NCBI GenBank assembly: GCA_015478655.1
Contig: JADMIJ010000006.1
Span: 1 to 64,000 of the forward strand
Direction: 5' to 3'
Length of the DNA stretch: 64,000 bases
From: Acidimicrobiales bacterium
GTDB lineage: Bacteria > Actinomycetota > Acidimicrobiia > Acidimicrobiales > RAAP-2
The notes under the pieces are model-generated. The model made no database searches, had not been told where the DNA came from, and was given only the letters and a program-made list of their open reading frames with translations. A program made the position numbers and the translations under genes. This document shows, in pieces, positions 23,448 to 54,563 of this stretch (its first letter is position 1; every line of letters begins with the position of its first letter).

Positions 23448-23524
<77 letters not shown>

Positions 23525-34220: not shown

Positions 34221-37200
34221 ATGTACTTCCAAGATGGTCAGCTCGTCGTTAGCCCGAGCGATCTTGTCGGCTACCTCTCGTGCCCCCACTTGACCGAACT
34301 TTCTATGGTGGTGGCACAAGGCGATCTCGCGAGGCCGCACGCAGAAGACCCCGATTTGGCCATCGTCCAGCGCCGTGGCCTCGAACACGAGGCCGCGTAC
34401 CTTACTGAGCTTGAGACAAGGGGACTCTTCATCGAGTCCATCAATGTTGACGCGGATCTCCGGATCCGCGTCAATCAAACGATCGACGCCCTCGCTGCCG
34501 GTGTCGAGGTGGTCTATCAGGCGGCATTCTTCGACAACGACGGGTCGGGTCAAGCGTGGGTTGGCTACGCCGACTTTCTCACCAAGGTGGCTCTGCCAAG
34601 CCGCCTCGGTGGCTACTCGTACGAACCCGAGGATACGAAGCTCGCCCGCCGTGTTCGACCCTCAGCCGTGCTGCAACTGTGCGCGTATGCCGAGCAGCTT
34701 GCCCGAGTCCAGGGCTGCGTGCCTGAGTTGATCCACGTCGTTCTTGGCGGACAGCGGCGTGTGTCGCTCCGACTGGCGGAGTTCGGTGCCTATTTTCGGA
34801 CGGTCAAGGCGCGATTCGAGCAAGTGCTGTCGAATGGCGCGGCCACCTACCCGACTCCCGTTGAGCACTGCTCTGTCTGCGTCTGGCGGCCGAGGTGCGA
34901 CGAACAGCGCAGTGGAGACGATCATCTGTCACTGGTGCCCGGGCTATCGAGCGAACAGGCGCGCAAGCTCTCCGAACACAGTGGAATCACGACCGTTGCA
35001 GAGCTGGCAGCCTTCTCGGGTGGCGCGGTGCCAGGTATGGCGGGAACCACGATGGAGAAGCTCTCCCGCCAGGCACGACTGCTGGTTACTGCACGTACGT
35101 CCTCGGCCGCGATCCCTCCCTATGAGTTGCTTCAGACAGCGGAACCCGGCATCGGCCTCGGCGCACTACCCGACCCCGATCCAGGCGACCTGTTCTTCGA
35201 TATCGAGGGCGATCCCTATGTGGGTGAGGGCGGCATCGAGTACCTCCTCGGGGTGGGATGGATCGCTTCGGATGGCCAGTTCGCGTACCAAGCGTTCTGG
35301 GGCCACGATGAAGCCGGAGAGAAGGCGGCCTTCGAGGCCTTTATCGACTTTGTGACCGAGCGGCTTGCCGTAGCTCCGCACCTCCACGTCTATCACTATG
35401 CCTCCTACGAACCGACCGCTCTCGGGCGCCTCATGGGGCGCCACGCGACGCGCGAGCAGGAGGTTGACGATCTGCTGCGTGGCGGCGTTCTGGTTGATCT
35501 CTACCGAGTGGCCAGGCAGGGTTTGTGCGTCGGCACGCCGTCGTATTCGTTGAAGAAGCTCGAGGCGCTCTACATGTCTGCGCGCACTGATGCCATCACC
35601 GACGCCGGTTCCTCCATTGTGGAGTACGAGCGATGGCTCGATACGAGCGACGATGCCATCCTCGCTGACCTCGAAGCGTACAACCGGGTGGACTGCGATT
35701 CGACCCGACTCCTTCGGGATTGGCTCGAAGAACGGAGGCCGGAGTACGAAGCGACCTTTGGCCTGGCGCCTTCCCGCCCACTGGCCGCTGACAGCCATGC
35801 CTCCGAAGGTGTGACTGCGGAGATCTCCGAGAACGCGGAGCTCAAGGTCCGCCTCGGAGAGTTGGCCGACGCATCTGATGTGACGTCCGCGCGTGCGGTT
35901 CGGCTCTTGGGTGAGTTGCTCGACTGGTACCGCAGGGAGGACAAGCCCAAATGGTGGCGCTTCTTCGATCGCGTACTGCGCTGTGACGCCGACGACCTGC
36001 TCCTCGACCCTGAGGCGATCTCGGGCCTTGAGTATGTGGGCGAGGCGGGGCGAGTGGCGCGTTCGATCCTCCACCGTTACCGCTTCGATCCCGACCAGCC
36101 CTACAAACTCAGCGTGGGCCAGGAGGTCCTCGACCCGTCGACGGAGCGACAGAGAATTGATGAGGGTTCGGGTCCACCAAGACCAGGCGAACTCGTATTC
36201 CTCGACCCGATCGAGGGTGTACTCGACCTTCGCCGGGGCGAGCGCTCGGCGGCGCCCCACCCTGAGCACCTCGTCCCCGGAGGTCCGCTCCGTACCGTGC
36301 AGCAGCGCGAGGCCCTCAGGCGCCTTGCGCGCGCTGTGCTCGAAGGTGGTATCGACGGCCCGGGTGCCTATCGGGCGGTTCGCGACCTACTGCTGCGCCG
36401 CCCACCGCGGCGCTCAGACCTGGCCGGAGGCGCCCTCCAGGAGTCCGGTGAAGACACCGTCAGTGCAAGCTTGAGGATCGCTGGTCACCTCGATGGAGGA
36501 TGTCTCGCCATCCAAGGTCCCCCGGGCTCCGGAAAGACGAGCACCGCTGCTCAGCTTGTGGTTGAGCTCGTCCGTGCTGGACGCACGGTCGGACTCACTG
36601 CAAACAGCCACGCGGTCATCACCCACCTGCTCGAAACAGTGATGCGCTGCGCCAAGGAGCAGGGCGTACCTCTTCGGGCCTCGCAGAAAGCAGAAGACGG
36701 TCAAGCGCTCAATCACCCTGGCGTCACCCGACGGACTGACAACGCCGACATGGCGTCGGACCTCGACCAAGGCACCAACGTCATCGCCGGCACGGCGTGG
36801 TTGTTCTCGCGTCCCGAGTTCGACCAGCGACTCGACTATCTGGTCGTCGATGAGGCGGGTCAGCTGTCTCTGGCAAACGTCTGCGCGGTCGGGACGGCCG
36901 CCAAGAACCTCGTGCTCGTCGGCGACCCACGCCAGCTTTCCCAGCCCTCCGAAGGCACGCACCCTCCAGGGGCCGGAACCTCGGGACTCGACCACCTCCT
37001 CGGCGATGCCGCCACGATCCCCCCGGACATCGGAATCTTCCTCGACCACACCCACCGGCTCCACCCAGCGATCTGCACCTTCATCTCCGAGATCGTCTAC
37101 GAGGACCGGCTCCAGTCTCTGCCGGGCTGCGAGCACCAGGCAATCGGGGGAGCTGGACCACTCGGTGGCTCCGGACTTCGTTGGGTTCCGGTCGACCATC

Positions 37201-37679
37201 AGGCCAACCGGACCTCGGCCCCAGAAGAGGCCGAGGTTATCCGTGGGCTCGTTGAGGATCTCCTAGTCCGATCCTGGACCGACAAGATGGAAAACATCCG
37301 ACCGCTTCGACTATCGGATGTCCTCGTGGTGGCGCCGTACAACGCGCAGGTGGCTCTCCTCGGCAGAACTCTTCCGAACGGAGTTCGCGTCGGCACCGTG
37401 GACCGGTTCCAAGGCCAGGAAGCTCCTGTGGTGATCGTGTCGCTGACGACCTCCAGCAGTGATCAGATCCCCCGCGGGTTCGACTTCCTATACAGCCAAG
37501 AACGCCTCAACGTGGCCGTGTCTCGCGCTCAGGCCCTCACTATTCTTGTTGGATCACCCGCGCTGCTCAGTGTCGCGTGCCGAACCGTGCAACAGCTTCG
37601 ACTCGCCAACGGCCTTTGTCGATTCATCGAGCTCGCGGAGGTGATCCAACCTGAGTGCTGGCAAGAGGCCAGTCCGTGA
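34221..37679 (+). CDS. TM0106-type RecB-like nuclease fused to a Upf1-like SF1 helicase
   Basis: Protein of 1152 residues. The N terminus has a RecB/Cas4-like nuclease (SPSDLVGYLSCPHL, Cys21), with the other iron-sulfur cysteines near residues 216-225 (HCSVCVWRPRC). A helix-hairpin-helix follows (LVPGLSSEQARKLSEHSGI), then an RNase H-like part (LFFDIEGDPYVGEGG, with HLHVYHYASYEPTAL). The C-terminal half is an SF1B helicase: GPPGSGKT (about 766-773), VVDEAGQLS (about 875-883), VGDPRQLSQPSEG, VDRFQGQEAPVVI and FLYSQERLNVAVSRA. The ATG follows GGGGAG. Such fusions process DNA or RNA ends and occur in defence islands. The next gene overlaps it by GTGA. Confidence 0.88.
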   Translation: MYFQDGQLVVSPSDLVGYLSCPHLTELSMVVAQGDLARPHAEDPDLAIVQRRGLEHEAAYLTELETRGLFIESINVDADLRIRVNQTIDALAAGVEVVYQAAFFDNDGSGQAWVGYADFLTKVALPSRLGGYSYEPEDTKLARRVRPSAVLQLCAYAEQLARVQGCVPELIHVVLGGQRRVSLRLAEFGAYFRTVKARFEQVLSNGAATYPTPVEHCSVCVWRPRCDEQRSGDDHLSLVPGLSSEQARKLSEHSGITTVAELAAFSGGAVPGMAGTTMEKLSRQARLLVTARTSSAAIPPYELLQTAEPGIGLGALPDPDPGDLFFDIEGDPYVGEGGIEYLLGVGWIASDGQFAYQAFWGHDEAGEKAAFEAFIDFVTERLAVAPHLHVYHYASYEPTALGRLMGRHATREQEVDDLLRGGVLVDLYRVARQGLCVGTPSYSLKKLEALYMSARTDAITDAGSSIVEYERWLDTSDDAILADLEAYNRVDCDSTRLLRDWLEERRPEYEATFGLAPSRPLAADSHASEGVTAEISENAELKVRLGELADASDVTSARAVRLLGELLDWYRREDKPKWWRFFDRVLRCDADDLLLDPEAISGLEYVGEAGRVARSILHRYRFDPDQPYKLSVGQEVLDPSTERQRIDEGSGPPRPGELVFLDPIEGVLDLRRGERSAAPHPEHLVPGGPLRTVQQREALRRLARAVLEGGIDGPGAYRAVRDLLLRRPPRRSDLAGGALQESGEDTVSASLRIAGHLDGGCLAIQGPPGSGKTSTAAQLVVELVRAGRTVGLTANSHAVITHLLETVMRCAKEQGVPLRASQKAEDGQALNHPGVTRRTDNADMASDLDQGTNVIAGTAWLFSRPEFDQRLDYLVVDEAGQLSLANVCAVGTAAKNLVLVGDPRQLSQPSEGTHPPGAGTSGLDHLLGDAATIPPDIGIFLDHTHRLHPAICTFISEIVYEDRLQSLPGCEHQAIGGAGPLGGSGLRWVPVDHQANRTSAPEEAEVIRGLVEDLLVRSWTDKMENIRPLRLSDVLVVAPYNAQVALLGRTLPNGVRVGTVDRFQGQEAPVVIVSLTTSSSDQIPRGFDFLYSQERLNVAVSRAQALTILVGSPALLSVACRTVQQLRLANGLCRFIELAEVIQPECWQEASP

Positions 37680-38317
37680 GTAAGTGGGCCAAGCTGACGA
37701 CGGATCAAGTGCTAGGCAGCTCCTGCGCTGCGCTGTCGCAATCCGAACAGGGTTGGAACGACCTATGTGGCGGTGAGGATTCACTTCGCCAATGGAATGG
37801 CCTCAAGTCGATGATCACAGCTGCCCGCACGACGACTTGGATCTTGCAGAAGCTCTCCTCTCGGGAATCTACTTTTGACGCTTGGTACGCACCAATTCAG
37901 GATGAGATGGCCGCCGACGAGTTGTTGCGTTACTTCCACCGATTGCGCACCGTAATTGAAAAGGAGGGCATGCCCCAGCCAATTATTGCCACGGTGGAGT
38001 TTCTCGAACCCGCCAACGGTGTCGTCGCGACGGCAGAGGTGGGTGTGGGGGAAGACCAGTTTGGGCTGTGGATTCATGGCGTCCTAGACAAGGGCCCGCA
38101 GCGAAGGTCGGCCGAAGTTGCGGCAGCGAGGGCTGCCACCCACCATCGGCTTCGCGACGTGCGATTGCCAGACCCACCTGCCCATCATCAGGGCCAGCTT
38201 CTCGAGGACCGCAGCATCGAATACCTCGGGCGCCGTTACCTGGACTACCTCGATGTGCGAATAGTCAGGCCGGCATGCGAGACCTTTGGCAAGCGCTCCC
38301 AACGCAACGAGGGCTGA
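37676..38317 (+). CDS. Protein of unknown function co-translated with the nuclease-helicase
   Basis: Protein of 213 residues starting at a GTG that overlaps the nuclease-helicase stop (GTGA). I recognise no domain. The N-terminal half is helical (SKWAKLTTDQVLG, MITAARTTTWILQKL, DELLRYFHRLRTVIEKEG). Then come strands (QPIIATVEFLEPANGVVATAEVGVG, FGLWIHGVLD) and a C-terminal helix ending with charged residues. No signal peptide or membrane segment. The overlap indicates that it works with the nuclease-helicase as a two-gene system. Its 3' end converges on the PLD-SNF2 helicase gene, 59 bp away. Confidence 0.65.
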   Translation: MSKWAKLTTDQVLGSSCAALSQSEQGWNDLCGGEDSLRQWNGLKSMITAARTTTWILQKLSSRESTFDAWYAPIQDEMAADELLRYFHRLRTVIEKEGMPQPIIATVEFLEPANGVVATAEVGVGEDQFGLWIHGVLDKGPQRRSAEVAAARAATHHRLRDVRLPDPPAHHQGQLLEDRSIEYLGRRYLDYLDVRIVRPACETFGKRSQRNEG

Positions 38318-38376: not shown

Positions 38377-41300
38377 CTACAGCTTGTCTCCAAGTGAAAA
38401 CTCGCCGATTTGTTCAGCAATCGTCACGACCGTCCCGTTGCCTGCGAGGTTGCTGCCAACCCCGGCACGCATGAGCACAAGGTCGAATAGCGGATCGCCG
38501 TAACTAAGGAGTCGCACCTCGGGGGAGTTTTCGTCCAGAACAATCCGGTCGAACGTGACGGCTATCTTGTTCCCGCTCTCGTCCTCCACGAGCCACGCTC
38601 CATCGATCATGGGGTGCTCGGAAAGCTGCTCCCTGGTCGCAGGGGAGTCCAGAAGGATTCGCTGAACGTCTTCGAGCGTCACGACGGGCGAAAGGATTCC
38701 CGCCGCTGGGTCCACGTCGTCGTTATTGAAGATGGTCACCGTGACAGCCTGCGCCTCCGCTTTATGGATCTCGTTCAGCAACTGCTGGACGATTTGTTCC
38801 ACGGATTGATCGGGTAGGAGTTGCGGTGCGTCCCCGCTGCTCTCCTCTGGTCCCATTTCGTATTGAACGATGGCGTCCTCAACGCTGGCGAGGACCGGCT
38901 GGGCCGGCCCCACTACCCAGGAGAAGCCGTCGTGCCCGGCGGCGATGCCCTTATAGATCTGCTCCTCGATGGTGTTCTGGTAAAACAGGTTGGTGACCTC
39001 GACAATCGGCTTGCCGTTGATGCGGTCGAGCCGACCGATGCGCTGTTCGACCCGCATGAAGTTCCACGGCATGTCGTAGTTGATGAGCCGCCCACAGGTC
39101 TGGAGGTTGAGCCCCTCGGAGAGGGCATCCGTGCCGACCAGGATCTTGATCTCGTTTCCCTCCTGGAACAGCCGCTTGGTCTCCTTCTTCGTGACATCGA
39201 TCCATTCGCCGGTCTCAGGGTGACGCCTCCGCCCACCGGAGCCGGAGTACGACATCACCCGGGATCCGTAGGCGGTAGACAGCTGATCGACGACGTAGTT
39301 CATCGTGTCCGCGTATTGGGTGAAGATGAGCACGGTGTCGTGGCCGGACTTGAAAGATGCGTCGATGTACTTGTGGAGACGGTCCATCTTCGACTCGTCC
39401 GCGGGCAGATCGGTCAGGTCTTTGATGAATTGGTTCAGTTCCCAAATCTCGTTCTCAAGCTCCTGGATAGGGGTTTGCTCCAGATCCTCCAGGTCGAGAG
39501 GGAGGGTCGGGTTGGCCATTACGTCGTCGTCATCCAGCAGGTTTGAGGCGGTGAGCTTTCCTTCGAGGACGTCCCGCCGGCGCTCAAGCGACAGGCGGAT
39601 CGACTGGAAGGACGAAGTGAGGCGGCGGCGGTAGACGGTCATAATGAACCCGAGCGCCTTTTGGGCCTGGCTCCCATGCATGTACCGGTTGTACGAGCGC
39701 TTGATGTAGGACCGAATCCGCTCGTACAGCTCCCATTCCTCGTCGGTCATGCGGATGAATTTGTCCTCGACCCTCCGCTCGGGGATGACGGTACCTGGCG
39801 GCAGCAGCCCGGCGTCCTCGTACGCGCGGAGCGTCACACGGGTGTTTCGGAAGACCCGCTCCCGCATTGGGTTGTTCGTCAGCAACCAAGTCGTGACCCA
39901 CGGTTGAAGCTCAGGGCCGAGGCCCTTCGCTTTCGACTGTGTGAGGCCGGTCTCTGCGACTTGCCGTACCCAAAGGGCTTCGGCAATGCCAAGCTCAGAA
40001 TCGATCTTCTCGTCAAGAACCCGGTCGGTCCGAGCAGCGGAGTCCGACAGGCTGTCGTGCGCCATGACTGTCAGGAAGCCCCAGTGGCGTCGCTCGAAGT
40101 CCTCCCGCAGTTCATCGAAGTAGCGAATGAACTCCTTCGAGGACTCTCCCCAGTGACCAGGGAGGCCGAGCAGCTCAACCAAATCCCATGCCTCATGAGG
40201 GTGCATCTGCATCGGCGTGGCCGAGGCGAGGAACAGAGCCCTGTACGCGTTGTTGTCCCTCAGTGCTTGGAGCAGTCTCAGAAGCTGGTTGGGTGTGCCG
40301 TTCGTCTTGCCTCCACTGCGTCGTGCGTGATGGGCCTCGTCGACCAATACGACGTCCCACGGACCCGCAGCAAGGACTTCTCGGATCCTGTCGCGCCGCC
40401 GTGCCAGATGTGACGAGGCGAGCACGATCGGAAACGCCGCCCATGGGGTGCCAGACGATGACACGACCTTGTTGTCGGGGTCGATGAACTCTCCACCCTC
40501 GTACCGATTGACCCGCAGGTTTAGCTTCTCGCTCAACTCCTCCTGCCACTGGCGGAGCACGGCGGCAGGAACGAGGAGAAGGAACCGCTCAGCTTTCCCG
40601 GACAAGAGAAGCTCCCGGATGATGAAACCGGCCTCGATGGTCTTCCCCAAGCCCACCTCGTCAGCGAGGAAGTATCCACGCGGCCATGTCTCCACTGCCC
40701 TGCGGACGAGAGAGGTCTGGTGAGGGAGCGGCTCGACCCCGGCGGTCGCCATCCCCACGTACGAGCCGCCACCGACTCGGGGAGCCTCGGCAAGCTCGAC
40801 CAGCCGAGGATCTAGCTCAACCGGAAAAGCCGGCAGCGAGGCAACAATTCGATGTTCCTCCGGGTCAGGTCCAATTGGTGGAAAGTCGCCCTTGGCCCAC
40901 TTGATGAGTTCGTCTCGAACGGCATCGTGCAGACTTAGGACTTTCCAACCCTCGTCGGGCCGGTCACGCCAGTGCGCATCAAACAGGGCCACAAGACCGG
41001 CGCCGATGTCATCCCAGGTCTCGGTCCGCCAGGTCGGCGCTGCGGCGAACGTCTCATGGTTGCCGACCCAACCCTGCCAGGTTTCATTGTCCGACCCGAT
41101 GAATGCGACCCGGTCGGCCGGGTCCGTGCAGTCTGTGAAGATCCCGTATTTTGAATGAAAGTACTTCGTCGCCTCAGCTAACCGATACGGCCTGCCCGTG
41201 GCCGGATCAACTGGGACGCCGACTCGAATTTCAAGACGGCCCTCCTTGACAAGCCAACCCAGCACGTTCCGCCGATGTTCGGCGATCACGTGCTTGGCCT

Positions 41301-41625
41301 CGCCCATTGCGTCAGACCGAAGCAACACCCGCGCCACGGCGTCCGAAAGGGGCTCTCCCCGGTCAATCGCTTCGACGTCATCTGGATCGAGTTGTGCGCC
41401 GACGATGAGCCGCATCACCCCACCGTTCGCGACAAAACTCGACAGGCCCGCCGCAGCAAGGCTGAGCGCGGACGAGGTGAAGTAGCCCGCCATTCGGTCG
41501 TAGGCGCTGGACCGCTCCAAAAGTGGCACATAGAAACCGGTGACACGATCGTCCTCAGCCGACCAGGTTCCCTTCCAACCGACCCGGTGCCAGTAGTCGT
41601 AGAAGCCCTCGGGTATGGGCGTCAT
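38377..41625 (-). CDS. PLD-like nuclease fused to a SNF2-family helicase (DISARM/BREX-like)
   Basis: Protein of 1082 residues. Residues 30-220 form a phospholipase D-like domain with HSKYGIF (157-163) and FIGSDNETWQGW (176-187), a single HKD site. The rest is a SNF2/SF2 helicase: motif I ADEVGLGKT (321-329), motif II VDEAHH (428-433), motif III ASATPMQMHP (467-476), and in the second lobe ILVGTDALSEGLNLQTCGRLINYD with motif VI RVEQRIGRLDRI. It is the last gene of the DUF499-small protein-methylase-helicase operon, three bases after the methylase stop. Similar proteins are labelled BrxHII or DrmD-like. It probably translocates on non-self DNA; cleavage by the PLD part is inferred. Confidence 0.9.
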   Translation of the reverse strand: MTPIPEGFYDYWHRVGWKGTWSAEDDRVTGFYVPLLERSSAYDRMAGYFTSSALSLAAAGLSSFVANGGVMRLIVGAQLDPDDVEAIDRGEPLSDAVARVLLRSDAMGEAKHVIAEHRRNVLGWLVKEGRLEIRVGVPVDPATGRPYRLAEATKYFHSKYGIFTDCTDPADRVAFIGSDNETWQGWVGNHETFAAAPTWRTETWDDIGAGLVALFDAHWRDRPDEGWKVLSLHDAVRDELIKWAKGDFPPIGPDPEEHRIVASLPAFPVELDPRLVELAEAPRVGGGSYVGMATAGVEPLPHQTSLVRRAVETWPRGYFLADEVGLGKTIEAGFIIRELLLSGKAERFLLLVPAAVLRQWQEELSEKLNLRVNRYEGGEFIDPDNKVVSSSGTPWAAFPIVLASSHLARRRDRIREVLAAGPWDVVLVDEAHHARRSGGKTNGTPNQLLRLLQALRDNNAYRALFLASATPMQMHPHEAWDLVELLGLPGHWGESSKEFIRYFDELREDFERRHWGFLTVMAHDSLSDSAARTDRVLDEKIDSELGIAEALWVRQVAETGLTQSKAKGLGPELQPWVTTWLLTNNPMRERVFRNTRVTLRAYEDAGLLPPGTVIPERRVEDKFIRMTDEEWELYERIRSYIKRSYNRYMHGSQAQKALGFIMTVYRRRLTSSFQSIRLSLERRRDVLEGKLTASNLLDDDDVMANPTLPLDLEDLEQTPIQELENEIWELNQFIKDLTDLPADESKMDRLHKYIDASFKSGHDTVLIFTQYADTMNYVVDQLSTAYGSRVMSYSGSGGRRRHPETGEWIDVTKKETKRLFQEGNEIKILVGTDALSEGLNLQTCGRLINYDMPWNFMRVEQRIGRLDRINGKPIVEVTNLFYQNTIEEQIYKGIAAGHDGFSWVVGPAQPVLASVEDAIVQYEMGPEESSGDAPQLLPDQSVEQIVQQLLNEIHKAEAQAVTVTIFNNDDVDPAAGILSPVVTLEDVQRILLDSPATREQLSEHPMIDGAWLVEDESGNKIAVTFDRIVLDENSPEVRLLSYGDPLFDLVLMRAGVGSNLAGNGTVVTIAEQIGEFSLGDKL

Positions 41626-41628
41626 GAC

Positions 41629-44538
41629 CTAGACCTCAAGATCGAGGCGGCCGGACCACTCTTCTGGTACCTCGATGTCCGGGAAGTATGCAGTGACGAG
41701 CCCGTCAAGCAATCCAGCCTCTGGACGTACCCAATTTCCCTTTGTCTTGGTCCGTGGGATGGCGTGCACAAGACCCTGGACACACGCAGTGAAGCGGTTA
41801 TCACCAGCCAGACCGGCCCGGTCAATCAACACTTTTGCGTCCGCAAGACCATCCTGTTCTGCGACATAGAGAACGGTGTGGACAGCATCTATGACGGGTC
41901 CGCCAAACGACTCGGCGGCAGGCCGGACCCCCGGCTTATCGTCCCCTCGGCGGCGGAGGCGCTCGTCCGGCCCACATAGCGTGACGGTGCCCGATCTCGT
42001 GGTGAGGATCTTGTCAGCTTCCAGCTCGCTCACGTCGAGACCACCGACGGCCAAGGCCAGCCTGCGGGCCTCATCGAAGGGGAAGCTCACTGCCCGGAAA
42101 GTCGACCACGCCAGAAGAACGAAGTCCGTCAGCGGGTCTAGCTCCACCGGCCTTCCGATTAGGGCCAGCCGCTGCATGCGAACAACCTCTTCGCGAGCTG
42201 CGTCAAGAGCCTCTTCGGGGCGAAGGAGCCGGGATTTGCCGAATTCATCAGCCTCCGAGGAGTAAACCGGCCAGTGGGCCGAAATAACCGAGAGGGCTGG
42301 CCCGTAGGTCGAGAGCAGAAGATCTACCCCTGATATTCCAGCGGCAGAAAAGCGACTTACGGCGTCCTTGGCAGCTTGACGGACTTCGCCCTCAAGGTCC
42401 TCGAAATATGGAGTTCCTCCCGAATGGTCTTCTCGTTTGCGGCAGACGAGCATGATGGTCGAGGCCGCGGCGTTCATCTTGGCTTGGTGGAGCGATTGCT
42501 CCGACTCTGTATTGACGGGCCACGATGATTCGATGGTGAACCCAGCCTCCATCAGTGCCATGCCAAGGGTGTCCCAAGCCTCGGCACGTTTGTGTGTGAA
42601 CATGACCGTCATCACGCCATCGTCGCGCAGCACCCGGTTGCACTCGGCGAAGATGGACTGCATTTTGGCTTGATAGTCGGCGACAGCAAGGGACTTCTTC
42701 TTGCGCCCTGAGTCAGCGAAGCGGGCGACGTTTGCGACTGCCTCGTTCTTGGCGTCGGCCAGACCACCCGGCATGAGGTCTGGCCAGATCGCTCCCACAG
42801 TGTGCTGCTCCCACACTCCAAAGAAGTCCGACAGTTCCGCGTACATTACGTTGTCGTAGTACGGGGGGTCGATACATACCAACGTTTGCGAGCTCGACTC
42901 CACTCCAGCCAGATTCCCGGCATTGCCGCGTGTGACTGTCACACTGCCGGGTACCGGAAAGTCCAACTCGACCCTGTCGGCAAAATGGGCATCCGAAGGG
43001 ACGAGGAGGTCCGCAATCCCCTCATATGCACCGACCAGCTGTTCAAGACACCAGGGATACAACTCCCGAGCGCCTTCGAACTCCGCATAGGTCCACTTGA
43101 AGGCCAAGTCGTGACGCTCGAACACCGAGCGCATGGTCGTTCGGCTTGCGTGCCAGGAAGCCAGAATCGCGTCGAAATTGAGAGCTTTGCCTTGCATCAG
43201 AGCGAGTAAACCGAGAACGGCATCGGCGCGCTCAGGCGGGAGGACTTCCCGAACCTCCGGTATCAGCCGCCTGAACTCTTCAACGAAGGTTCCGTGGACA
43301 AGAAGTTGCCTCGGCGAGAACATGTCATGCCAGTGGATCATCCCGTAGTTGAGTGGTTCCCTGGTCTTGTTACCCTCTGGAATCGCCTCTGAAGGAATGA
43401 TCCCATCGGCCAGCCATTCCGCCTTACAAGCGGAGAACGCTGTCTCGGCCGCCTCTATTGCATGCAAGTCGGTTTCATTCGGAGGTCTGAACGTCCGAAT
43501 CCACTTGGCGCGGCCGTTTCCGGGGTATCGAACAGAAACCGCATAGAGGATGCTACCCATCCGACCGGCTTGCGCCTCTGCCTTTATGTACTCTCCATTG
43601 ATGGTAAGCCCATCCCATGGAGAGATTGCGGCGCCGCCGGCAACTGTTCCCTTGTCGGGATTCGAGTTGACCGCATCCTCGCCAAACAGAATCTCAAACA
43701 CCGGATGATCTAGCTCGGCGTCGATATGGTGGGTGAGCAGCCGGACAGCCGCTTTCTTCCCTGCTTCCTTTGACAGCCACCAGTTGGGTGCCAGCGGAAC
43801 GATCTTCTCACTGCGTGGACATTTGATCGTTCGAGCAAAAAGGTACGAATTGTTGTTGCTGTTGTCCGGTAGAGCGAAATAAGGAACTAGACGCGTACGC
43901 ACCCGGCCGACAAGTGCCTCTCCCCATTGTCGAAGGTCGTCTTGGAGTGACAGCCCAAGTCTCGTGGTTACTTCGAGTCCAGCGCGAAGAACGCAGGCGG
44001 CTACGGAATTTAAGTCATTCGCGGTGGTGGACAGTCCATACCGGGCAGCTTCGTACGGGATGGAACCACCACCGGCGGTGGGGTCAATGACATCGGGAAG
44101 TTCGCCCCAGGTCCAAATCAAAATGGCCTGCCAAAGGGCAAGATCGCTCGTTGACGGCGAATTCTTGAACGCCTGCTTATACCCGTACGCCTTCGCTCCA
44201 AGAGTGATTCCGCTGGCAGTGGCTTCAGCGATCCGCGCCTTCGCTGCGACAGGATCGCCCCAAATGCCCATTAGCTTCATAGCCCAACGTCGATACTTGT
44301 CTGCGTCAGACAACTCAGGTCGATCGCTGAACGTGGTGGCCAGCTCTGGCGTCCAAGTGGGCAAGAGGCTTGCTAGCACCGTTCCGGCGGACGCAGCGAG
44401 CGGTCTTCTAGCCCACCACACATGGAGCGTCTTGAGCTTCGGGAACTGTCCTGGAATCGGAGCGGACTCCCGCCGAGACTCGATCCCCAGCTCCTCAATC
44501 GGGAACCAGTCTTCGATGAGGACGCGAGGCCGCGTCAC
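41629..44538 (-). CDS. DUF1156-type DNA methylase (PglX1-like adenine methyltransferase)
   Basis: Protein of 969 residues. The N terminus, LIEDWFPIEELGIESRRE, then KTLHVWWARRPLAASAGTVLA, is the DUF1156 signature. The SAM-binding block is VIDPTAGGGSIPYEA (150-164) and the catalytic block is CIDPPYYDNVMYAELSDFF (about 556-574), a DPPY motif of amino-methyltransferases acting on N6-adenine or N4-cytosine. A later DDGVMTVMFTHKRAEAWDTL continues the methylase core. The C-terminal 250 residues are helical. Type 3 BREX methylases (PglXI) share this DUF1156 layout. It would mark self DNA. Parts of the gene (around 43.3-44.4 kb) are visibly less GC-rich than the chromosome on the left. Confidence 0.9.
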   Translation of the reverse strand: MTRPRVLIEDWFPIEELGIESRRESAPIPGQFPKLKTLHVWWARRPLAASAGTVLASLLPTWTPELATTFSDRPELSDADKYRRWAMKLMGIWGDPVAAKARIAEATASGITLGAKAYGYKQAFKNSPSTSDLALWQAILIWTWGELPDVIDPTAGGGSIPYEAARYGLSTTANDLNSVAACVLRAGLEVTTRLGLSLQDDLRQWGEALVGRVRTRLVPYFALPDNSNNNSYLFARTIKCPRSEKIVPLAPNWWLSKEAGKKAAVRLLTHHIDAELDHPVFEILFGEDAVNSNPDKGTVAGGAAISPWDGLTINGEYIKAEAQAGRMGSILYAVSVRYPGNGRAKWIRTFRPPNETDLHAIEAAETAFSACKAEWLADGIIPSEAIPEGNKTREPLNYGMIHWHDMFSPRQLLVHGTFVEEFRRLIPEVREVLPPERADAVLGLLALMQGKALNFDAILASWHASRTTMRSVFERHDLAFKWTYAEFEGARELYPWCLEQLVGAYEGIADLLVPSDAHFADRVELDFPVPGSVTVTRGNAGNLAGVESSSQTLVCIDPPYYDNVMYAELSDFFGVWEQHTVGAIWPDLMPGGLADAKNEAVANVARFADSGRKKKSLAVADYQAKMQSIFAECNRVLRDDGVMTVMFTHKRAEAWDTLGMALMEAGFTIESSWPVNTESEQSLHQAKMNAAASTIMLVCRKREDHSGGTPYFEDLEGEVRQAAKDAVSRFSAAGISGVDLLLSTYGPALSVISAHWPVYSSEADEFGKSRLLRPEEALDAAREEVVRMQRLALIGRPVELDPLTDFVLLAWSTFRAVSFPFDEARRLALAVGGLDVSELEADKILTTRSGTVTLCGPDERLRRRGDDKPGVRPAAESFGGPVIDAVHTVLYVAEQDGLADAKVLIDRAGLAGDNRFTACVQGLVHAIPRTKTKGNWVRPEAGLLDGLVTAYFPDIEVPEEWSGRLDLEV

Positions 44539-44548
44539 GACGACTCCT

Positions 44549-45010
44549 TCACGAAGTGATACCTGTGCGGCCGTCGTCCGCCAATAGGATTCTGAGAGCG
44601 CGCCTTGCCCGCTGCGCGATTGGGCCGGTGATCCGAGCGAACCAGTAGTACGCCTCCTCAGCGCTCATGGCGGAGATGCCAGCGAGGATGGCGTGTCGCC
44701 GACTGGACTTCGTGATCGGCTCGATGGCTATCAAGGCGAGCGCAAGCCGCACCCCGGCCGGCTCTTCAAGAGGAATGGGCTTGCGACGACCCGGTGAGAG
44801 TTTCGTGCGCGGCTGGTGGGATTCTCTCAGAGCTTGTTGGAGTATGTCTGAAACGCCAGGAACCTCATCGGACCGGAGGTGGGCGAGGCGTTTGGGAGGT
44901 ATTGCGGCGCTGCCATTGGTCTCTTCGAGCCGGAGACCGTACTCGTCACTTGAAACGGGCTCCACGATGATCCGAAAGCCCCGGATCTTGGACTGCTGGA
45001 TGGCGCTCAT
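44549..45010 (-). CDS. Small protein of the DUF499/DUF1156 defence operon
   Basis: Protein of 153 residues between the ATPase and methylase genes, overlapping the ATPase stop by ATGA and ending ten bases before the methylase start. The N-terminal half is strand-rich (SKIRGFRIIVEPVSSDEYGLRLEE). The C-terminal half is helical (GVRLALALIAIEPITKSSRRHAILAGISAMSAEEAYYWFARIT and RARRALRILLADDG). Small uncharacterised proteins occupy the same slot in related operons. No catalytic motif is visible. A subunit of the ATPase-methylase complex is the simplest guess. Confidence 0.72.
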   Translation of the reverse strand: MSAIQQSKIRGFRIIVEPVSSDEYGLRLEETNGSAAIPPKRLAHLRSDEVPGVSDILQQALRESHQPRTKLSPGRRKPIPLEEPAGVRLALALIAIEPITKSSRRHAILAGISAMSAEEAYYWFARITGPIAQRARRALRILLADDGRTGITS

Positions 45011-48000
45011 GCCAGTTCCGCCTTGATGGTGAGTTCGCCCGGGTCAAGATCAACCAGCGCCTTCTTGATCTGTGTGAACTCCGCTCCATCCGGGTCCATT
45101 GGGCTCTGAGGTCTAGTGGTTAGGGTCATACTTCCGGCCACCTGAGCAGCGGCCTTGCCGAGAGCAAGGATCTGGTCCTCCACGGCGAGGTAGGCGACCG
45201 CCTTGCCGGAGAGCCTGGCGGTCGCGCCGGGAGCGAGTCCATCGAACTGAATGACGAGGTCCAGCTGTACCTCGACATCGAACTTGGGAAGCCGTGGGAT
45301 GACCTGTCCGAGAGACCGGATGTCCTTGACGCCTTCACCCGGGTCTGCGGTGGCTGTCACGTACAGCGCCACTATCCCGTTGCTCTGAGCCACGTCGAGT
45401 GCCTTTTCGGCGACCTGACCCATTGCAACTCCCGCGAGTCCACGCCCCTCAACCGGACGCGGTCCCTTCGAGGTCATTCCGAGTTCAACGCCTTGGGTCT
45501 GTGCCTCAATCGGGGTCAGGATCGTGAGGGCGTCGAAACCAGCCTTCTCGATCTGGGCTTGGGTGGCTGCCTTTGCTCCCTCGAACACCTCGCCGATGAC
45601 CACGACGACCTTGGCAGCGGCGCCGCCACCCGCCCCACGGGCGAGCGCAGCAGCGATCTCACCCTTAGGCGGCTCGTAGCCCATTTGGGTTTCCAGAGCT
45701 TCTCGCAACTCGGGCCCTGTGAGAGGGCCGGTCAATACGGCGGTCACATCGTCGATCCGCAACGGCCGACGAAGGAGTCCGAGTTCTTCAGCCCTCGCAA
45801 GGGTGTAGAGGATTGTTGAACTCTCCAGCGCCACCGGAGGTGGCGGGTCGTTGGCGGTCCATGCCCTCCCCTGGTCCGCGTCGAAGTAGACCCAGGTACC
45901 GTTCTTCACCCCGTCCCGAATGGTCTCCTTCAAGAGATTCGAGTCGAGGATGATGGCCACCGAATGGTCCTGCCAGAAGTAGTCGGCAATTGCCGACGCC
46001 GTGATCTCCGCGGCGTCCTTCGGCCACGCCTTCTGCTTCAGGTAGTCGGTCGGGAACTTGGTGTCCCGGATCTTCTGCTCGTCACGTAGCGCCTCGGGAA
46101 TCGACTTGGTGAGCTTCGGCGGGATAGATCCCTTGTCCTTCGGAGGCATCTCGTAGTGGCGGAGATGCGCGTTGTGAGCGTCCGCGACCGGGTAGTAGAG
46201 GTGCGAGTAGCACCGGGCGATTGCGACCTTCATCTCCAGGGCAGCCGTGTCGGCGATCGCCTCGATCTTCTTGCGAACTTGCGGGGGGAACTGGTTGAGG
46301 CGGTCGGGCGAGTTGCAGATGCGGTCTGTCGCCATGGTCGTTCGCACCCGGCTTTTCACGTTCTGTACCTGGTCGGTGTCGGCTACGAGAAATACCACCC
46401 CGTTGCGGTTCGTTCGGAATCCGCCAGCGGCGCCAGCGTGCTCTCGGATGTCGATGACCCGTTCCGGTGGCGGCGTGGCTGAGCGAGAAGTTACCGATAC
46501 ATCGTCGTGGTGGATTACGACGAGTTGGAGGCGGGTCTCGTTCGGCACGTCCACCGGCCCGGAGGGGTTGATCCGGGTCTTGACTGGTCCGTCGTCGCCG
46601 AAGGCGCTGGCGATGCGCTCTTCCAACTCCTGGGAGACCTGGCTGTTCGGGATGTTCCGAGCCTCTTCGGCCACGATGGCGTTGGCGTTGGGCTCAGTGA
46701 GGAACCTGTACCGCGACCCGTCGTAATCAAGATGCCAGGCCCTATCCTGGAGAAGCGCCAACGCCTCCTCGACGACCGCCGGGTCGTCCCCGGTCTCCAA
46801 TGTGCCGAGCAGGTACGCGCCCCGCGGTGCGCCGGAAGTAGCCGTCTGTTCGAGTGAGTGAAGAAAGACGGTGGTGGCAGCACGGGTAGCGAAGGGGCGG
46901 CGAGTCGAGAATCTCTCGTTGTCGATTGCCGCTGCGTGTGACGACTCCCCACAGATGTCCACCCTGGCCACCTGCTCGTACTCGTCCCTGCCAAGGCCCA
47001 CGGTGAGGTGAGTGAGCACCGGGTCAATATTCAAGTCGATGTCGGCCACGTTGATGACCCCGGTCGTCTTCCCTGATGCCCACATGCCCGCAATCACTTC
47101 GGCGAGAAGCTTCAACGCACCCCGGGCTCGCTGGAAGTTGGGGATCGCACCGAGGCGCTTGTCGAGGACCCGAACCAGCTCTGGATGGAACGGGTAAGAA
47201 GCCTCGATCAGCTCGGCGTAACTGGTCGGCTGGTCCGCTCCCCCTTCGAGGGCCTGGCCCTTCTCTGCGAGGTTCTCGTAAAAGGGACGGAATGCAGCGG
47301 CGGCGGCTGCGGCGGCTCCCTGGTCGATGTGCTTGAACAGCCGGGTCTTGAGGATCTGGGCGATCTCGTTATCTTCAGCCGGGCGGATGATCGATTCCGA
47401 ACGGGCGAGAGCTGATTTGGTGTCGGCCAGGGTGCTCTGGAAGACCTCCTCGGCCTCCGTCAGAAGGTCCTCGATCTCCGAAGTCTCTTTGCCAAAGGCG
47501 TCCGATCGCGTGGCGAGCGTGAGGATGACCACCACGTTGGGGTGGGAACCCGAATACTCGAACAGGTTTTTGAGGAAGACAGGGACGGCCGTGGCTTGAC
47601 GGCGGGCGTCCTCGCTCCCGGAGGACAGCAACTGGCGGAGATGCCCGGCTATCTCGTCGATGATGATGACTGTCGGCATTGTGCCGATGACGTTGTCCCA
47701 GGTGCCCGTCCCCGGAGCCGACCGCTGCTCGTCGTTCAAGCGCATGTCGCCGTAACTGCCTAATTGGGCGGCGATCTCCCCCCACATAGTGAAGGTTTGG
47801 AAGCCATCGTGTGCCACACCCGCCACCGGGTCGAGGGCGTCGCCGACGACCGCCGCCACTTGGCAAGAATCTGGCAGCAGCTCGGGGTCGATGAACTGGT
47901 CCAGATTCGAGGGCCGGGCGCCCTCGGCGAGGTAGAAGGTGACGATCAGCCCATGGGTTTTCCCGCCGCCGAATGTCGTCTGCAACCGGATGACCCCGTG

Positions 48001-48240
48001 TTCCGCACCAGGCACCTTGGCCCCTGAAAGTCGGCCGAAAGTCCGTTCCAGCAGGCGCCGCACTCCTCGGGTGGGGTGGGTCAGGGCGAAAAACTGCTCG
48101 GGGTCGCCGTAGATCGGGTAGCTGGCACGGTCCCGCACGATGGTGTCGAGGTTCGCGGCGAACATCTGGTCGGAGAGCTGCCCACTCAGGACGTCTTCGC
48201 GTGGCTGACAGGTCTCAGTGATGCTCGCCAAGCCGCTCAT
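45007..48240 (-). CDS. DUF499 P-loop ATPase (BrxC/PglY-like)
   Basis: Protein of 1077 residues, first gene of the four-gene operon. The ATG at 48240 follows GGGAG; the open frame further upstream is rejected. The DUF499 part has QTTFGGGKTHGL as Walker A (88-99), TVIIIDEIAGHLRQ as Walker B (190-203), and VVVILTLATRSDAFGKE as the sensor region. The C-terminal 400 residues carry a predicted winged-helix and end domain without known catalytic residues. BrxC and PglY in BREX/Pgl systems are ATPases of this family, needed for both methylation and restriction. No PglZ phosphatase-domain gene is in the window. Confidence 0.9.
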   Translation of the reverse strand: MSGLASITETCQPREDVLSGQLSDQMFAANLDTIVRDRASYPIYGDPEQFFALTHPTRGVRRLLERTFGRLSGAKVPGAEHGVIRLQTTFGGGKTHGLIVTFYLAEGARPSNLDQFIDPELLPDSCQVAAVVGDALDPVAGVAHDGFQTFTMWGEIAAQLGSYGDMRLNDEQRSAPGTGTWDNVIGTMPTVIIIDEIAGHLRQLLSSGSEDARRQATAVPVFLKNLFEYSGSHPNVVVILTLATRSDAFGKETSEIEDLLTEAEEVFQSTLADTKSALARSESIIRPAEDNEIAQILKTRLFKHIDQGAAAAAAAAFRPFYENLAEKGQALEGGADQPTSYAELIEASYPFHPELVRVLDKRLGAIPNFQRARGALKLLAEVIAGMWASGKTTGVINVADIDLNIDPVLTHLTVGLGRDEYEQVARVDICGESSHAAAIDNERFSTRRPFATRAATTVFLHSLEQTATSGAPRGAYLLGTLETGDDPAVVEEALALLQDRAWHLDYDGSRYRFLTEPNANAIVAEEARNIPNSQVSQELEERIASAFGDDGPVKTRINPSGPVDVPNETRLQLVVIHHDDVSVTSRSATPPPERVIDIREHAGAAGGFRTNRNGVVFLVADTDQVQNVKSRVRTTMATDRICNSPDRLNQFPPQVRKKIEAIADTAALEMKVAIARCYSHLYYPVADAHNAHLRHYEMPPKDKGSIPPKLTKSIPEALRDEQKIRDTKFPTDYLKQKAWPKDAAEITASAIADYFWQDHSVAIILDSNLLKETIRDGVKNGTWVYFDADQGRAWTANDPPPPVALESSTILYTLARAEELGLLRRPLRIDDVTAVLTGPLTGPELREALETQMGYEPPKGEIAAALARGAGGGAAAKVVVVIGEVFEGAKAATQAQIEKAGFDALTILTPIEAQTQGVELGMTSKGPRPVEGRGLAGVAMGQVAEKALDVAQSNGIVALYVTATADPGEGVKDIRSLGQVIPRLPKFDVEVQLDLVIQFDGLAPGATARLSGKAVAYLAVEDQILALGKAAAQVAGSMTLTTRPQSPMDPDGAEFTQIKKALVDLDPGELTIKAELA

Positions 48241-48409
48241 GTGCTCTCCCTTGCTACTGGATCTTCTTCCTGGTTGCCTCCCGTCCGAATGCACATAAGG
48301 ACCTGGCCAGTCGGCCCGGCCTGCGCGTGCATGTTCGCGAGTATCCCCAGCGTACGGCAGGGGTGTTTCATTCGCTTTGAAGTCGGGTGGCAGAGCAGCG
48401 GAACGACTC

Positions 48410-48649
48410 TCATGGCTCGTTGGGCTCAAGGGCCAGCAGCGTGTCTGTGCGTCTTTCGTACTTTCGCCGGGGATGCTCCTCGAACCATTTGAGCGCTACC
48501 TCGTCACGCCACAGTCGAGTCCCGTTGGGCAGGATGACCTCCGGCTCGGGAAAATCCTCGGCGTTCCGGATGATGTCGGCGACCCTGGTGTGAGTAACGC
48601 CCAAGCTCTCCCCGAGCTGGCCAGTCGTCACCAGGTTGTTGGCCATCAT
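48410..48649 (-). CDS. Small helix-turn-helix DNA-binding protein (AlpA/excisionase-like)
   Basis: Protein of 79 residues. LVTTGQLGESLGVTHTRVADIIRNAEDFPEPEV is a MerR/AlpA-type helix-turn-helix of the kind found in excisionases and small phage regulators; a wing follows with RLWRDEVALKWFEEHP. It lies 169 bp upstream of the DUF499 gene on the same strand and 45 bp after the sigma-like gene. It could be the operon regulator or an excisionase of the element. The two in-frame ATG codons at the start (48649 and 48646) are equivalent. The interval 48241-48409 probably holds the operon promoter; I see no clear motif. Confidence 0.75.
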   Translation of the reverse strand: MMANNLVTTGQLGESLGVTHTRVADIIRNAEDFPEPEVILPNGTRLWRDEVALKWFEEHPRRKYERRTDTLLALEPNEP

Positions 48650-51604: not shown

Positions 51605-52390
51605 ATGAGCGTTGTCGCCATAGCCTCGGTGCGTTCGTGCGGCGTGACCACTCTCACCGCCGGCCTGGCCATGGTGTGGCCCGGCCAGTGCCAACGCCTG
51701 GTCATCGAGGCAGACCCGGCGGGAGGGATGCTTGCCGCCGCGTCCGGTCTCCCACCTGAGCCGGGGTTGGTGAGCCTGGCGGCGGCCGCACGACGCCACG
51801 ACGAGCCGACGGTCGCCTTCGAGCATTGCCAGTCCCTTCCGGGCGGGACTCCGATCCTGTGCGGCCCCCCGACTTCGGAGCGGGCTCGCTCAGCCCTCAC
51901 CATGTTGTCGGGTCTCCTCGGACGGCTGGGCGAGCTCGATGCTGACGTATTCGTGGACTGCGGACGGTTCGAGCCCGCGGCATCGAACGCCGTCTTGTTC
52001 GAGCGGGCGGACCTCAACGTGCTTGTTGTCCGCCCTCGGCTGGCCGACCTGCACGCCCTTGGCGCGTTCGTCCAAGGCCGGAACGACGCGCTCGCGCGCG
52101 CGACCCTCGTGCTCGTTGGCCCCGGCCCTTACCCGCCCGCCGAAGTAGGCGATGCGCTCGGCCTCGATGTGGTCGGACACATTCCTTGGGATCCCGATGC
52201 AGCGCAGATGCTGGCGACCACTCCGGTGGGCTCTCGCCAACTCACCCGGTCGCCGCTGGTGCGCGCTCTGCGCACGCTGGCCGACGACCTCGCCCGCCGG
52301 GTCGGTCGTCGGGCCGGGGGGCAGTCGCAACTACCGGGCGATCCCGTGGCGGCGAATGGTCACGGGCCGGCGTTGGAGGTTGGGCGATGA
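51605..52390 (+). CDS. CpaE/TadZ-like MinD-family protein with degenerate P-loop
   Basis: Protein of 261 residues with the MinD/ParA fold pattern: a first strand SVVAIASVRSCGVTTLTAGLA, then LVIEADPAGGMLAAASGL, DADVFVDCGRF and ADLNVLVVRPRLADLHAL. At the P-loop the usual KGGxGKT reads RSCGVTT, so both lysines are missing and ATP hydrolysis is unlikely. TadZ/CpaE proteins place Tad pili at the cell pole and some lack full ATPase motifs. Its TGA overlaps the ATG of tadA. The frame upstream of 51605 runs through the SAF gene and is not part of this gene. Confidence 0.8.
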   Translation: MSVVAIASVRSCGVTTLTAGLAMVWPGQCQRLVIEADPAGGMLAAASGLPPEPGLVSLAAAARRHDEPTVAFEHCQSLPGGTPILCGPPTSERARSALTMLSGLLGRLGELDADVFVDCGRFEPAASNAVLFERADLNVLVVRPRLADLHALGAFVQGRNDALARATLVLVGPGPYPPAEVGDALGLDVVGHIPWDPDAAQMLATTPVGSRQLTRSPLVRALRTLADDLARRVGRRAGGQSQLPGDPVAANGHGPALEVGR

Positions 52391-53715
52391 CGGAGAACAG
52401 GGTGGTTGGAGACACGGTGGTCGATCGGTTGCGTGCCCAGGTTTTGGGCGCGTTGTCCGAACGCCAACGCGCCGACCAGATCTCGGGCCGGCCGCCATTG
52501 CGGGGCGCCGATGAGCAGGCCCTCGGGCGCCAGCTCATCGCCGACGTTCTCGACGCCGATGCCCGCGAGGCCCTCGCGGCGGGGCGCCCGGTTCGCCCGC
52601 CCGAAGAGGATGACGCCCTGACCCAGGCGGTGTTCGACGCTCTGTTCCGCTTGGGTCGCCTTCAGCGCCTGCTCGACGACCCCTCGGTCGAGAACATCAA
52701 CGCCAACGGAGCTGACCAGGTCTGGGTTCGCTATGCCGATGGCCGACGGGAGCGGACCGATCCCATCGCCGCATCGGACGAAGAGCTGACCGAGCTGGTG
52801 CGTAACGCCGCAGCCCGCCTCGGGATCGGCGAGCGGCGCTTCGACCTGGGCTCGCCACGGCTCTCCCTCCAGCTCCCCGACGGGTCCCGCCTGTTCGCGG
52901 TGATGGCAGTGGCCGCCCGGCCCTGTCTCTCGATCCGCCGCCACCGTTACCTCAAGATCACCCCCGACGATCTCGTGGGCATGGGTACCTTGGACTTGGC
53001 GTTGCGGGAGTTGCTTCGCTCGCTGATGTTGGCCCGCAAGTCGGTCATCATCTGCGGCGGTACCGGGGCGGGCAAGACGACCTTGCTCCGCGCCGTGGCG
53101 GCCGACATCCCGCCCTGGGAGCGGCTCGTCACCATCGAGGACTCCCTGGAGCTGGGTCTCGACCGCTACCCCGAGCTGCACCCCGACGCGGTCGCCCTCG
53201 AAGCCCGCGAGCCGAATCTCGAAGGCGAGGGCGGGATCAGCCTGGCCGAGTTGGTGCGGTGGGCACTGCGGCTCAACCCCGACCGGGTCATCGTGGGCGA
53301 GGCCCGCGGTGAAGAGGTCTTGGCGCTGCTCAACGCGATGTCCCAGGGTACCGACGGGTCGATGGCCACTCTCCATGCGTCGAGCTCGAAGGGGGTGTTC
53401 TCCAAACTGGCGACCTACGCGGTGCAAGCCCCCGAGCGCCTGCCGCTCGAAGCCACGAACCTGCTAGTGGCCAACGCCGTGCACTTCGTGGTTTTTTTGG
53501 CCCAGGACCCGGCCGGGCGGCGGTTCGTGTCCTCGGTACGCGAAGTCGTCGACGCCGACGGGCCGATGGTGGTCTCCAACGAAGTCTTCCGCCCCGGCCC
53601 CGACGGCCGGGCCGTTCCCGGTGTCAGCCTGCGCACCGACACGCTCGACGAGCTGGTCGAGGTCGGCTTCGACCCAGGGCTCCTGGAACGCCCTGGCGGA
53701 TGGTGGGAACGATGA
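52387..53715 (+). CDS. tadA: Tad pilus secretion ATPase TadA/CpaF
   Basis: Hexameric secretion ATPase of 442 residues that powers pilin extrusion. The Walker A is ICGGTGAGKTTLLR (about 222-235), the Asp box region is TIEDSLELGL, the Walker B is NPDRVIVGEARGEEVLALLNAMSQG, and the His box lies in GSMATLHASSSKG. An N-terminal domain carries PSVENINANGADQVWVRY, typical of CpaF. Overlaps are ATGA with the CpaE-like gene before it and ATGA with tadB after it. TadA-type ATPases also occur in archaeal-like and conjugative settings, but the full set of partners here is that of a Tad pilus. Confidence 0.94.
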   Translation: MTENRVVGDTVVDRLRAQVLGALSERQRADQISGRPPLRGADEQALGRQLIADVLDADAREALAAGRPVRPPEEDDALTQAVFDALFRLGRLQRLLDDPSVENINANGADQVWVRYADGRRERTDPIAASDEELTELVRNAAARLGIGERRFDLGSPRLSLQLPDGSRLFAVMAVAARPCLSIRRHRYLKITPDDLVGMGTLDLALRELLRSLMLARKSVIICGGTGAGKTTLLRAVAADIPPWERLVTIEDSLELGLDRYPELHPDAVALEAREPNLEGEGGISLAELVRWALRLNPDRVIVGEARGEEVLALLNAMSQGTDGSMATLHASSSKGVFSKLATYAVQAPERLPLEATNLLVANAVHFVVFLAQDPAGRRFVSSVREVVDADGPMVVSNEVFRPGPDGRAVPGVSLRTDTLDELVEVGFDPGLLERPGGWWER

Positions 53716-54563
53716 CTGCTCTTGGAGTCTTGCTTGGCGCGGGTGCCGGCCTCGGCGTCGCCCTCATCGCGCTCGGCCTCCGCGGCGTCGAGGCGCGGCG
53801 CCAAACAGACAGGGTCACCCGTGCCCGCGTCGAACGTCACACTCTGCGCCTCGCCATCGCGGTCGGCGCGGCGGTGCTCGTCGGGGCGGTCACCGGTTGG
53901 CCGGTTGCCGCTCTCCTCGCCGCCGCAGCCTGCTGGGGCGTCCCGGCGCTGTTCACTGAGTCGAAAGCCCAAGCGACCACGATCGCCCGGGTCGAGGCGG
54001 TGGCGGGATGGGCCGAGATGCTGCGCGACACCATGGCCGGCGCGGCCGGCCTGGAACAGGCCATCGCCGCCACCGCCACCGTCGCACCGCCACCGATCCG
54101 CCGGGACGTGGCGACACTGGCCGCTCGGCTCGAACGCCAGCGTCTGGGGCCGGCTCTGCGGGCCTTCGCCGACGACGTGGCCGACCCGACCTGCGACTTG
54201 GTGGTCGCCGCGTTGCTGCTCGCCGCCGAACACCAAGCCAGCCGACTCGGGGAGCTGCTCGGCACCCTGGCCACCACAGCGCGCGACCAAGCCACGATGC
54301 GCCTTCGGGTCGAGGCGGGGCGGGCGCGAACCCGCACCTCGGTCAAACTCATCGTCGGAATCACCCTCGGTCTCGCCCTGTTCCTCGCCGTGTTGAACCA
54401 CGGCTACCTGGCCCCCTACGGCAGCGGCGTCGGCCAGCTCGTCCTGCTCTTGGTGGGCGGGCTGTTCGCGGCGGCCTTCGCCTGGCTGGCCAAGATGACC
54501 AGGCCCGCCGAGCCGGCCCGGTTCCTCGCCGTCCAGTTGACTGCGTCGGAGGCGAGACGGTGA
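53712..54563 (+). CDS. tadB: Tad pilus inner-membrane protein TadB
   Basis: Protein of 283 residues of the type II secretion F (GspF) family, a platform protein that couples the ATPase to pilin assembly. Hydrophobic segments are at about 2-22, 49-80, 225-245 and 250-272, around a cytoplasmic helical domain with EMLRDTMAGAAGLEQAIAATA, the typical GspF pattern. The start at 53712 overlaps the tadA stop (ATGA); ATG at 53700 is possible but would lie deeper in tadA. It overlaps tadC by GTGA. Confidence 0.87.
   Translation: MTALGVLLGAGAGLGVALIALGLRGVEARRQTDRVTRARVERHTLRLAIAVGAAVLVGAVTGWPVAALLAAAACWGVPALFTESKAQATTIARVEAVAGWAEMLRDTMAGAAGLEQAIAATATVAPPPIRRDVATLAARLERQRLGPALRAFADDVADPTCDLVVAALLLAAEHQASRLGELLGTLATTARDQATMRLRVEAGRARTRTSVKLIVGITLGLALFLAVLNHGYLAPYGSGVGQLVLLLVGGLFAAAFAWLAKMTRPAEPARFLAVQLTASEARR

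Follow-up and report, generated by a model that had tools for sequence, protein, structure and literature searches.

A 64,000-nucleotide stretch of an Acidimicrobiales draft genome (contig JADMIJ010000006.1; hereafter the window) carries a compact four-gene operon that, judged from its sequence, probably encodes an RM-like, DUF499-centred BREX-Related (BR) defence system, of a lineage with a DUF7680 gene where the Type-2 BR systems have DUF3780. Operons of DUF499, DUF1156 and Snf2 proteins (Hma, BR) are already known, as is the PLD-Snf2 fusion (Type-2 BR); what is new is that the fourth gene is DUF7680 and marks a distinct lineage. The literature searched contained no mention of DUF7680 and no link of it to defence, and DUF3780 was mentioned only in the survey PMC12839542 (Rakesh and Krishnan 2026), the main text of which does not name DUF7680.

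The operon comprises four collinear minus-strand open reading frames, from 48240 down to 38377, in the transcription order DUF499 ATPase, DUF7680 protein, DUF1156 amino-methyltransferase and PLD-Snf2 helicase (Table 1). The DUF499 gene overlaps the small gene by 4 bp and the remaining intergenic gaps are 10 bp and 3 bp; the initial annotation had the joined genes and the operon end right. This overlap probably couples translation of the DUF7680 gene, whose 153-residue product had no family name in the initial annotation, to that of the ATPase gene. The open frame of the DUF499 gene (45007-48429) reaches a TTG at 48429, though translation likely starts at the ATG at 48240, which a putative ribosome-binding site (GGGAG) closely precedes; the GTG start of the methylase gene is preceded by GGAG.

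Table 1. Features of the DUF7680 operon in the window
Feature	Coordinates	Strand	Evidence
DUF499 ATPase, BrxC-like, PADLOC HmaC, operon gene 1	45007..48240	-	PF04465 1.7e-40; HmaC 295 bits
DUF7680 protein, 153 aa, lineage-marking small subunit	44549..45010	-	PF24728 1.6e-28
DUF1156 amino-methyltransferase, HmaB-like, GTG start	41629..44538	-	PF06634 2.4e-13; HmaB 236 bits
PLD(HKD)-Snf2 helicase fusion, 1082 aa, presumed nuclease effector	38377..41625	-	SNF2 1.1e-18, Helicase_C 7.3e-16
HKD-type nuclease motif HSKYGIFTD...GSDN, helicase residues 157-180	41086..41157	-	motif search

Intact motifs were found in the DUF499 protein (Walker A and Walker B), the methylase (DPPY and motif I, DPxAGxG) and the helicase (GLGKT, DEAH and HSK...GSDN). 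DPPY-type motifs are typical of amino-methyltransferases. The PLDc_2 match of the helicase (4.3e-4) is under the Pfam cut-off; its PLD part is nevertheless taken as real, since the HKD motif (HxK...GSxN, N-terminal to Walker A) is kept in 39 of the 40 helicases encoded at DUF7680 loci, the one miss being a contig-edge fragment, and the fusion of a PLD domain to the helicase was thus correctly recognized in the initial annotation.

The survey (PMC12839542), in its main text, sorts the DUF499-centred BR systems into three types. In Type 2, read there as RM-like, the Snf2 helicase has an N-terminal HKD nuclease, and a standalone DUF3780 gene is present in 98% of taxa. The operon of the window is like Type-2 BR in its DUF499 ATPase, DUF1156 methylase, HKD-Snf2 helicase, gene order and slot for the small gene, and in having no PglZ, but has DUF7680 where Type 2 has DUF3780; the 153-aa protein matches only DUF7680 (Pfam) and nothing in NCBIfam. 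NCBIfam has 'anti-phage' equivalog models for all three core proteins (DUF499, DUF1156, PLD) of operons of this kind, and those of the window score far below the cut-offs (DUF499 protein, NF042962, 190 bits vs 1200; methylase, NF042963, 227 bits vs 1000; helicase, NF042964, 326 bits vs 1100); in the trees described below they are not part of the DUF3780 clades. According to the initial annotation, a match to a DUF499-DUF1156-PLD system that already has a name would have spoken against its reading; such a system is largely on record, because Type-2 BR has the PLD-Snf2 fusion and NCBIfam models cover such operons; the fourth gene and its lineage stay new.

The reading in question was that of a BREX/DISARM hybrid, with the PLD-helicase looking as though DrmC-like and helicase functions had merged. 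The helicase does score with the PADLOC models DrmD and BrxH, and its Snf2 core cross-matches DrmA, but the DrmD and BrxH scores are probably generic Snf2 matches, and the PLD-Snf2 fusion is the established architecture, and a stated hallmark, of the Type-2 BR systems described in PMC12839542. PglZ, DrmB and BrxB are missing from the operon itself, and searches of the draft genome (4.47 Mb, 92.9% complete, 347 contigs) found no PglZ (positive in 2/14 control genomes), no DrmB (MZB domain; 8/14) and no BrxB (3/14), in agreement with the initial annotation on PglZ and DrmB and supplying the search that it had proposed for BrxB. The BrxA model had no match in the draft genome, nor in any control genome, and DUF3780 was also not found in the draft genome. 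Since the draft is 92.9% complete, PglZ, DrmB or BrxB might still lie elsewhere in the genome. With these genes not found in the draft and BREX-Related systems already in the literature, the hybrid was rejected and is given next to no credence; what stands of the initial annotation is a BREX-related, methylation-based system with a PLD-helicase fusion and no PglZ. Type-3 BREX (BrxC, BrxXI, BrxHII) has a parallel set of ATPase, methylase and Snf2 helicase (PMC12839542), but the window has no PglZ and an HKD nuclease in its stead. Type-3 BR likewise differs, as PglZ is present in 569 of the 569 taxa reported in the main text of the survey and was not found in the draft genome.

The PADLOC check proposed in the initial annotation gave strong matches to the Hma models (HmaA 200, HmaB 236 and HmaC 295 bits), and the models PLD_Helicase, DUF1156_MTase and DUF499 also match the operon proteins. 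Hma (PADLOC; Payne 2021, PMC8565338), or Type-1 BR, is alike in its helicase, methylase and ATPase families, and experiments of Liu 2024 confirmed a phage-defence role for the HmaA-type helicase, according to a remark in PMC12839542. With these matches to the Hma models, the operon might be a divergent Type-1 BR system in which a PLD nuclease replaces the C-terminal PD-(D/E)XK, the more so as a minority of Type-1 systems are without the PD-(D/E)XK fusion (PMC12839542, main text). Hma and Type-1 BR systems, however, have three genes, often with a HEPN-DUF499 protein and a C-terminal PD-(D/E)XK on the helicase, whereas the operon in the window has four genes in another order, an HKD nuclease and no HEPN-length N-terminus; no Pfam match to a HEPN or PD-(D/E)XK domain was found in the operon. 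Walker A lies at residues 34-213 of the DUF499 open frames of DUF7680 loci, compared with residues 210-297 in 20 of 33 DUF499 proteins of other systems. An HKD motif ahead of Walker A was found in 28/28 helicases of DUF3780 systems vs 0/14 other helicases. The gene order is also reversed relative to sampled DUF499 operons of the actinobacterial phylum with neither small gene, in which the methylase (and the helicase, where seen) precedes DUF499. A Type-1 origin is therefore regarded as very unlikely. HmaB is called an m5C methylase in PMC8565338, yet the family has DPPY-type motifs and the PADLOC label is DNA-adenine. An archaeal operon of COG1743, DUF499 and a SWI2/SNF2-nuclease (PD-(D/E)XK or PLDc), described in Bell 2020 (PMC7641849), shares the three core genes; its PLDc version is on record there, and DUF7680 is not mentioned in the description.

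When GTDB contigs were scanned once, using nothing but a DUF7680 alignment, 43 loci were obtained, in all of which DUF499 is upstream and the DUF1156 methylase downstream of DUF7680, a few being contig-edge fragments; in a stricter recount, DUF499 and the methylase flank 41/43 and 42/43 loci, respectively, the misses being contig-edge fragments. The helicase is next in 37 of the 43 loci; of the six loci without it, five are on contigs that end at most 25 bases past the last gene found, and in L046 the contig ends within the methylase. The four-gene order is thus fixed across distant phyla: the titles of the bacterial loci name Actinobacteria, Chloroflexi, Acidobacteria, Deltaproteobacteria, Firmicutes, Cyanobacteria and Alphaproteobacteria (phylum names that are in part our presumption), and the scan also found many haloarchaea. 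At least 38 plasmid records carry DUF7680, the gene being unannotated or labelled 'hypothetical protein', and three plasmid loci chosen via DUF499 (L114, from Rhodococcus pyridinivorans SB3094, L116 and L117) carry it as well. In phylum-level samples around the window's genome, DUF7680 was found in 3/396 genomes, DUF499 in 32/296 and DUF3780 in 1/296. There was no DUF7680 match in the phage collection, and the two DUF7680 loci on viral contigs did not have a full operon in the stretch examined.

For comparison, 12 DUF3780 loci were taken from the 20 plasmid records found. Eleven have the order DUF499-DUF3780-DUF1156-PLD-Snf2, some with inserted toxin-antitoxin or other genes, and the twelfth (L125) has transposases after DUF3780; DUF7680 therefore occupies the slot of DUF3780. 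The two small genes were together in none of the loci examined. Insertions were also observed at this position: VapBC-type toxin-antitoxin genes lie directly after DUF3780 on two Deinococcus plasmids (L125, L128), an AAA_21 (OLD-like) ATPase gene lies between DUF7680 and the methylase in L012 (4826-6115), and on a Nostoc plasmid (L117, 13261-22364) DUF7680 and the DUF1156 methylase are separated by genes for a ThiF-family adenylyltransferase, a multiubiquitin-domain protein, a PIN protein and a regulator/peptidase pair. A single plasmid of Halosimplex aquaticum carries two DUF7680 cassettes (L030 and L031); in L031, DUF499 and the methylase are each split into two frames, and DUF7680 and the helicase are whole.

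Trees of the core proteins (quick IQ-TREE with SH-aLRT, unrooted; 78 rows for DUF499, 73 for the methylase and 53 for the helicase; rows of at least 600 residues, or 500 for helicases) were computed with redundancy filters of 85% and 80%, and repeated at 70% with the long or broken rows L098, L101, L112, L113 and L156 left out; a RapA-like helicase in L017 was excluded as well. Type-3 BR is missing from these trees, because none of the 296 genomes of the phylum had a strong PglZ match and DUF499 on one contig. Each tree separates three sets, namely proteins from systems with DUF7680, with DUF3780 and with neither. Support for the DUF3780 sets is 100 in each tree, and the DUF499 set includes one stray row (22 Type-2 rows in the first DUF499 tree and 13 in the repeat), and the DUF499 protein of the window is outside this clade. 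The DUF7680 sets were supported with 91 (DUF499), 94 (methylase) and 76 (helicase) in the first trees and with 88 (DUF499) and 92 (methylase) in the repeat, where the helicases were not one side of a branch; support is hence moderate (88-94) for DUF499 and methylase, and the helicases of DUF7680 systems possibly form a grade between the two other sets. Two strays with neither gene were seen in the first DUF499 tree, L112, whose branch is very long, and L156, which falls within the DUF3780 clade though its DUF499 gene comes without DUF3780. A DPxAGxG-type motif I was found in 40/43 methylases of DUF7680 loci vs 0/29 of DUF3780 loci.

These data bear on whether the operon is a plain Type-2 BR system, with DUF7680 a fast-evolving DUF3780 and a lineage that needs no rank of its own. 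The identical gene order and HKD-Snf2 fusion, taking Type 2 as the main text of PMC12839542 describes it, would fit, as would two small proteins with a like order of secondary-structure elements and helix registers in step (see below). On the other hand, the DUF3780 models (Pfam, NCBIfam) do not match the 153-aa protein, long branches of support 100, measuring 1.3-2.1 changes per column, set all three core proteins of DUF3780 systems apart from those of DUF7680 systems, and midpoint-drawn trees of methylase and helicase, in which the root is arbitrary, group the DUF7680 systems with the systems that have neither gene. We regard a plain Type-2 system as a real but less probable alternative. The best reading is a fourth DUF499 lineage, or else one that branches deep within Type 2, in which DUF7680 would serve as a DUF3780-like subunit, and we lean towards the DUF7680 systems being a fourth, unnamed BR subtype that spans bacteria and archaea, in which DUF7680 and DUF3780 would be diverged branches of one family, not recognised before, that forms a dedicated core subunit of HKD-armed BR systems.

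For the kinship of the two small proteins, AlphaFold2 models were compared (DUF7680, pLDDT 90.6, pTM 0.84; DUF3780, pLDDT 79.7). DUF3780 is described as four strands and five helices, with no definitive homologue reported, in the main text of PMC12839542; both models have the element order b-b-b-a-b-a-a-a-a, and DUF7680 has a strongly conserved EE..YW core. When the helices are placed by their DSSP starts, unfitted, conserved residues of helix B (G and L) and of helix D (the EE pair) come to lie in register between the two families. In the register test, each of the helices A to D (4/4) peaks at shift 0 among nine shifts, and the real total is reached by 0/20000 within-element permutations. 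Permuting also removes helix periodicity and so inflates this test, but periodicity does not account for helices B and D scoring better at shift 0 than at shifts of 3 or 4. The two strands give no register signal (4873/20000 permutations), and the last helix has to be given a chosen offset to fit. Profile comparison by hhalign was not significant in local runs (probability at most 1.2%), with a maximum of 2.7% for a 13-sequence DUF3780 alignment in global mode; of 1000 column shuffles, 193 score as high and none aligns as many columns, and of 1000 block shuffles with secondary structure, 977 score as high and four align as many columns. Taken together, a common ancestry of DUF7680 and DUF3780 is likely, as judged from these models.

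With DUF7680 as query, Foldseek had no match in PDB or among viral models at E <= 0.001. VIA-align gave a best Z of 3.8 for DUF7680 (RuvA; 47 residues, rmsd 2.8), followed by PARP WGR (3.5) and others, and a best Z of 3.2 for the DUF3780 model, mostly with other chains; Z values of 3-4 were also obtained with unrelated folds, and none of these was taken as a convincing fold match for DUF7680. The role of DUF7680 is therefore proposed by analogy with DUF3780, for which a role as reader of modified bases is itself the survey's proposal (PMC12839542).

For the mode of action, we infer enzyme activities, a role for DUF7680 and defence itself as follows. The DUF1156 methylase would mark self DNA, probably as N6-methyladenine, and the DUF499 AAA+ ATPase would build a scanning complex on DNA. 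DUF7680, in the position where the main text of PMC12839542 puts a reader of modified bases, may be an obligatory small subunit, either helping to distinguish modified from unmodified DNA or linking the ATPase with its partners. Invading DNA would then be cut by the Snf2 motor and the HKD nuclease at its N-terminus, which would make PglZ dispensable. Instead of reading DNA marks, DUF7680 might act as inhibitor or immunity partner of a toxic helicase-nuclease, being small and probably translationally coupled; we consider this unlikely, given that the gene follows the ATPase gene in 43/43 loci and is not beside the nuclease gene, and that its fixed presence and conserved EE..YW core suit a structural subunit too.

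The operon lies about 8 kb from a complete candidate ZacA-ZacB-ZacC defence system (24055-30260, +; PADLOC 288, 519 and 1076 bits) and faces an RNase H/SF1 helicase gene, and the region is probably a defence island. ZacABC starts about 0.5 kb after a tRNA-Met gene (23448-23524), a possible integration hot spot. The convergent gene (34221-38317, +) encodes a protein with RNase_H_2 and SF1 helicase parts that partially matches MkoA, and is overlapped by a 220-aa gene without matches. Type II/IV secretion ATPase and T2SSF genes (52186-55465, +), apparently a pilus-type cluster, border the island.

The DUF499 systems have been sorted into three subtypes (PMC12839542, main text), and the locus in the window points to a further lineage, present at no fewer than 43 GTDB loci and in 38 plasmid records. 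DUF7680 would represent a second branch of the DUF3780-like fold, with the better structure prediction, which makes its conserved residues open to mutation tests, and, if the lineage is confirmed, a DUF7680 model could let defence finders tag such systems.
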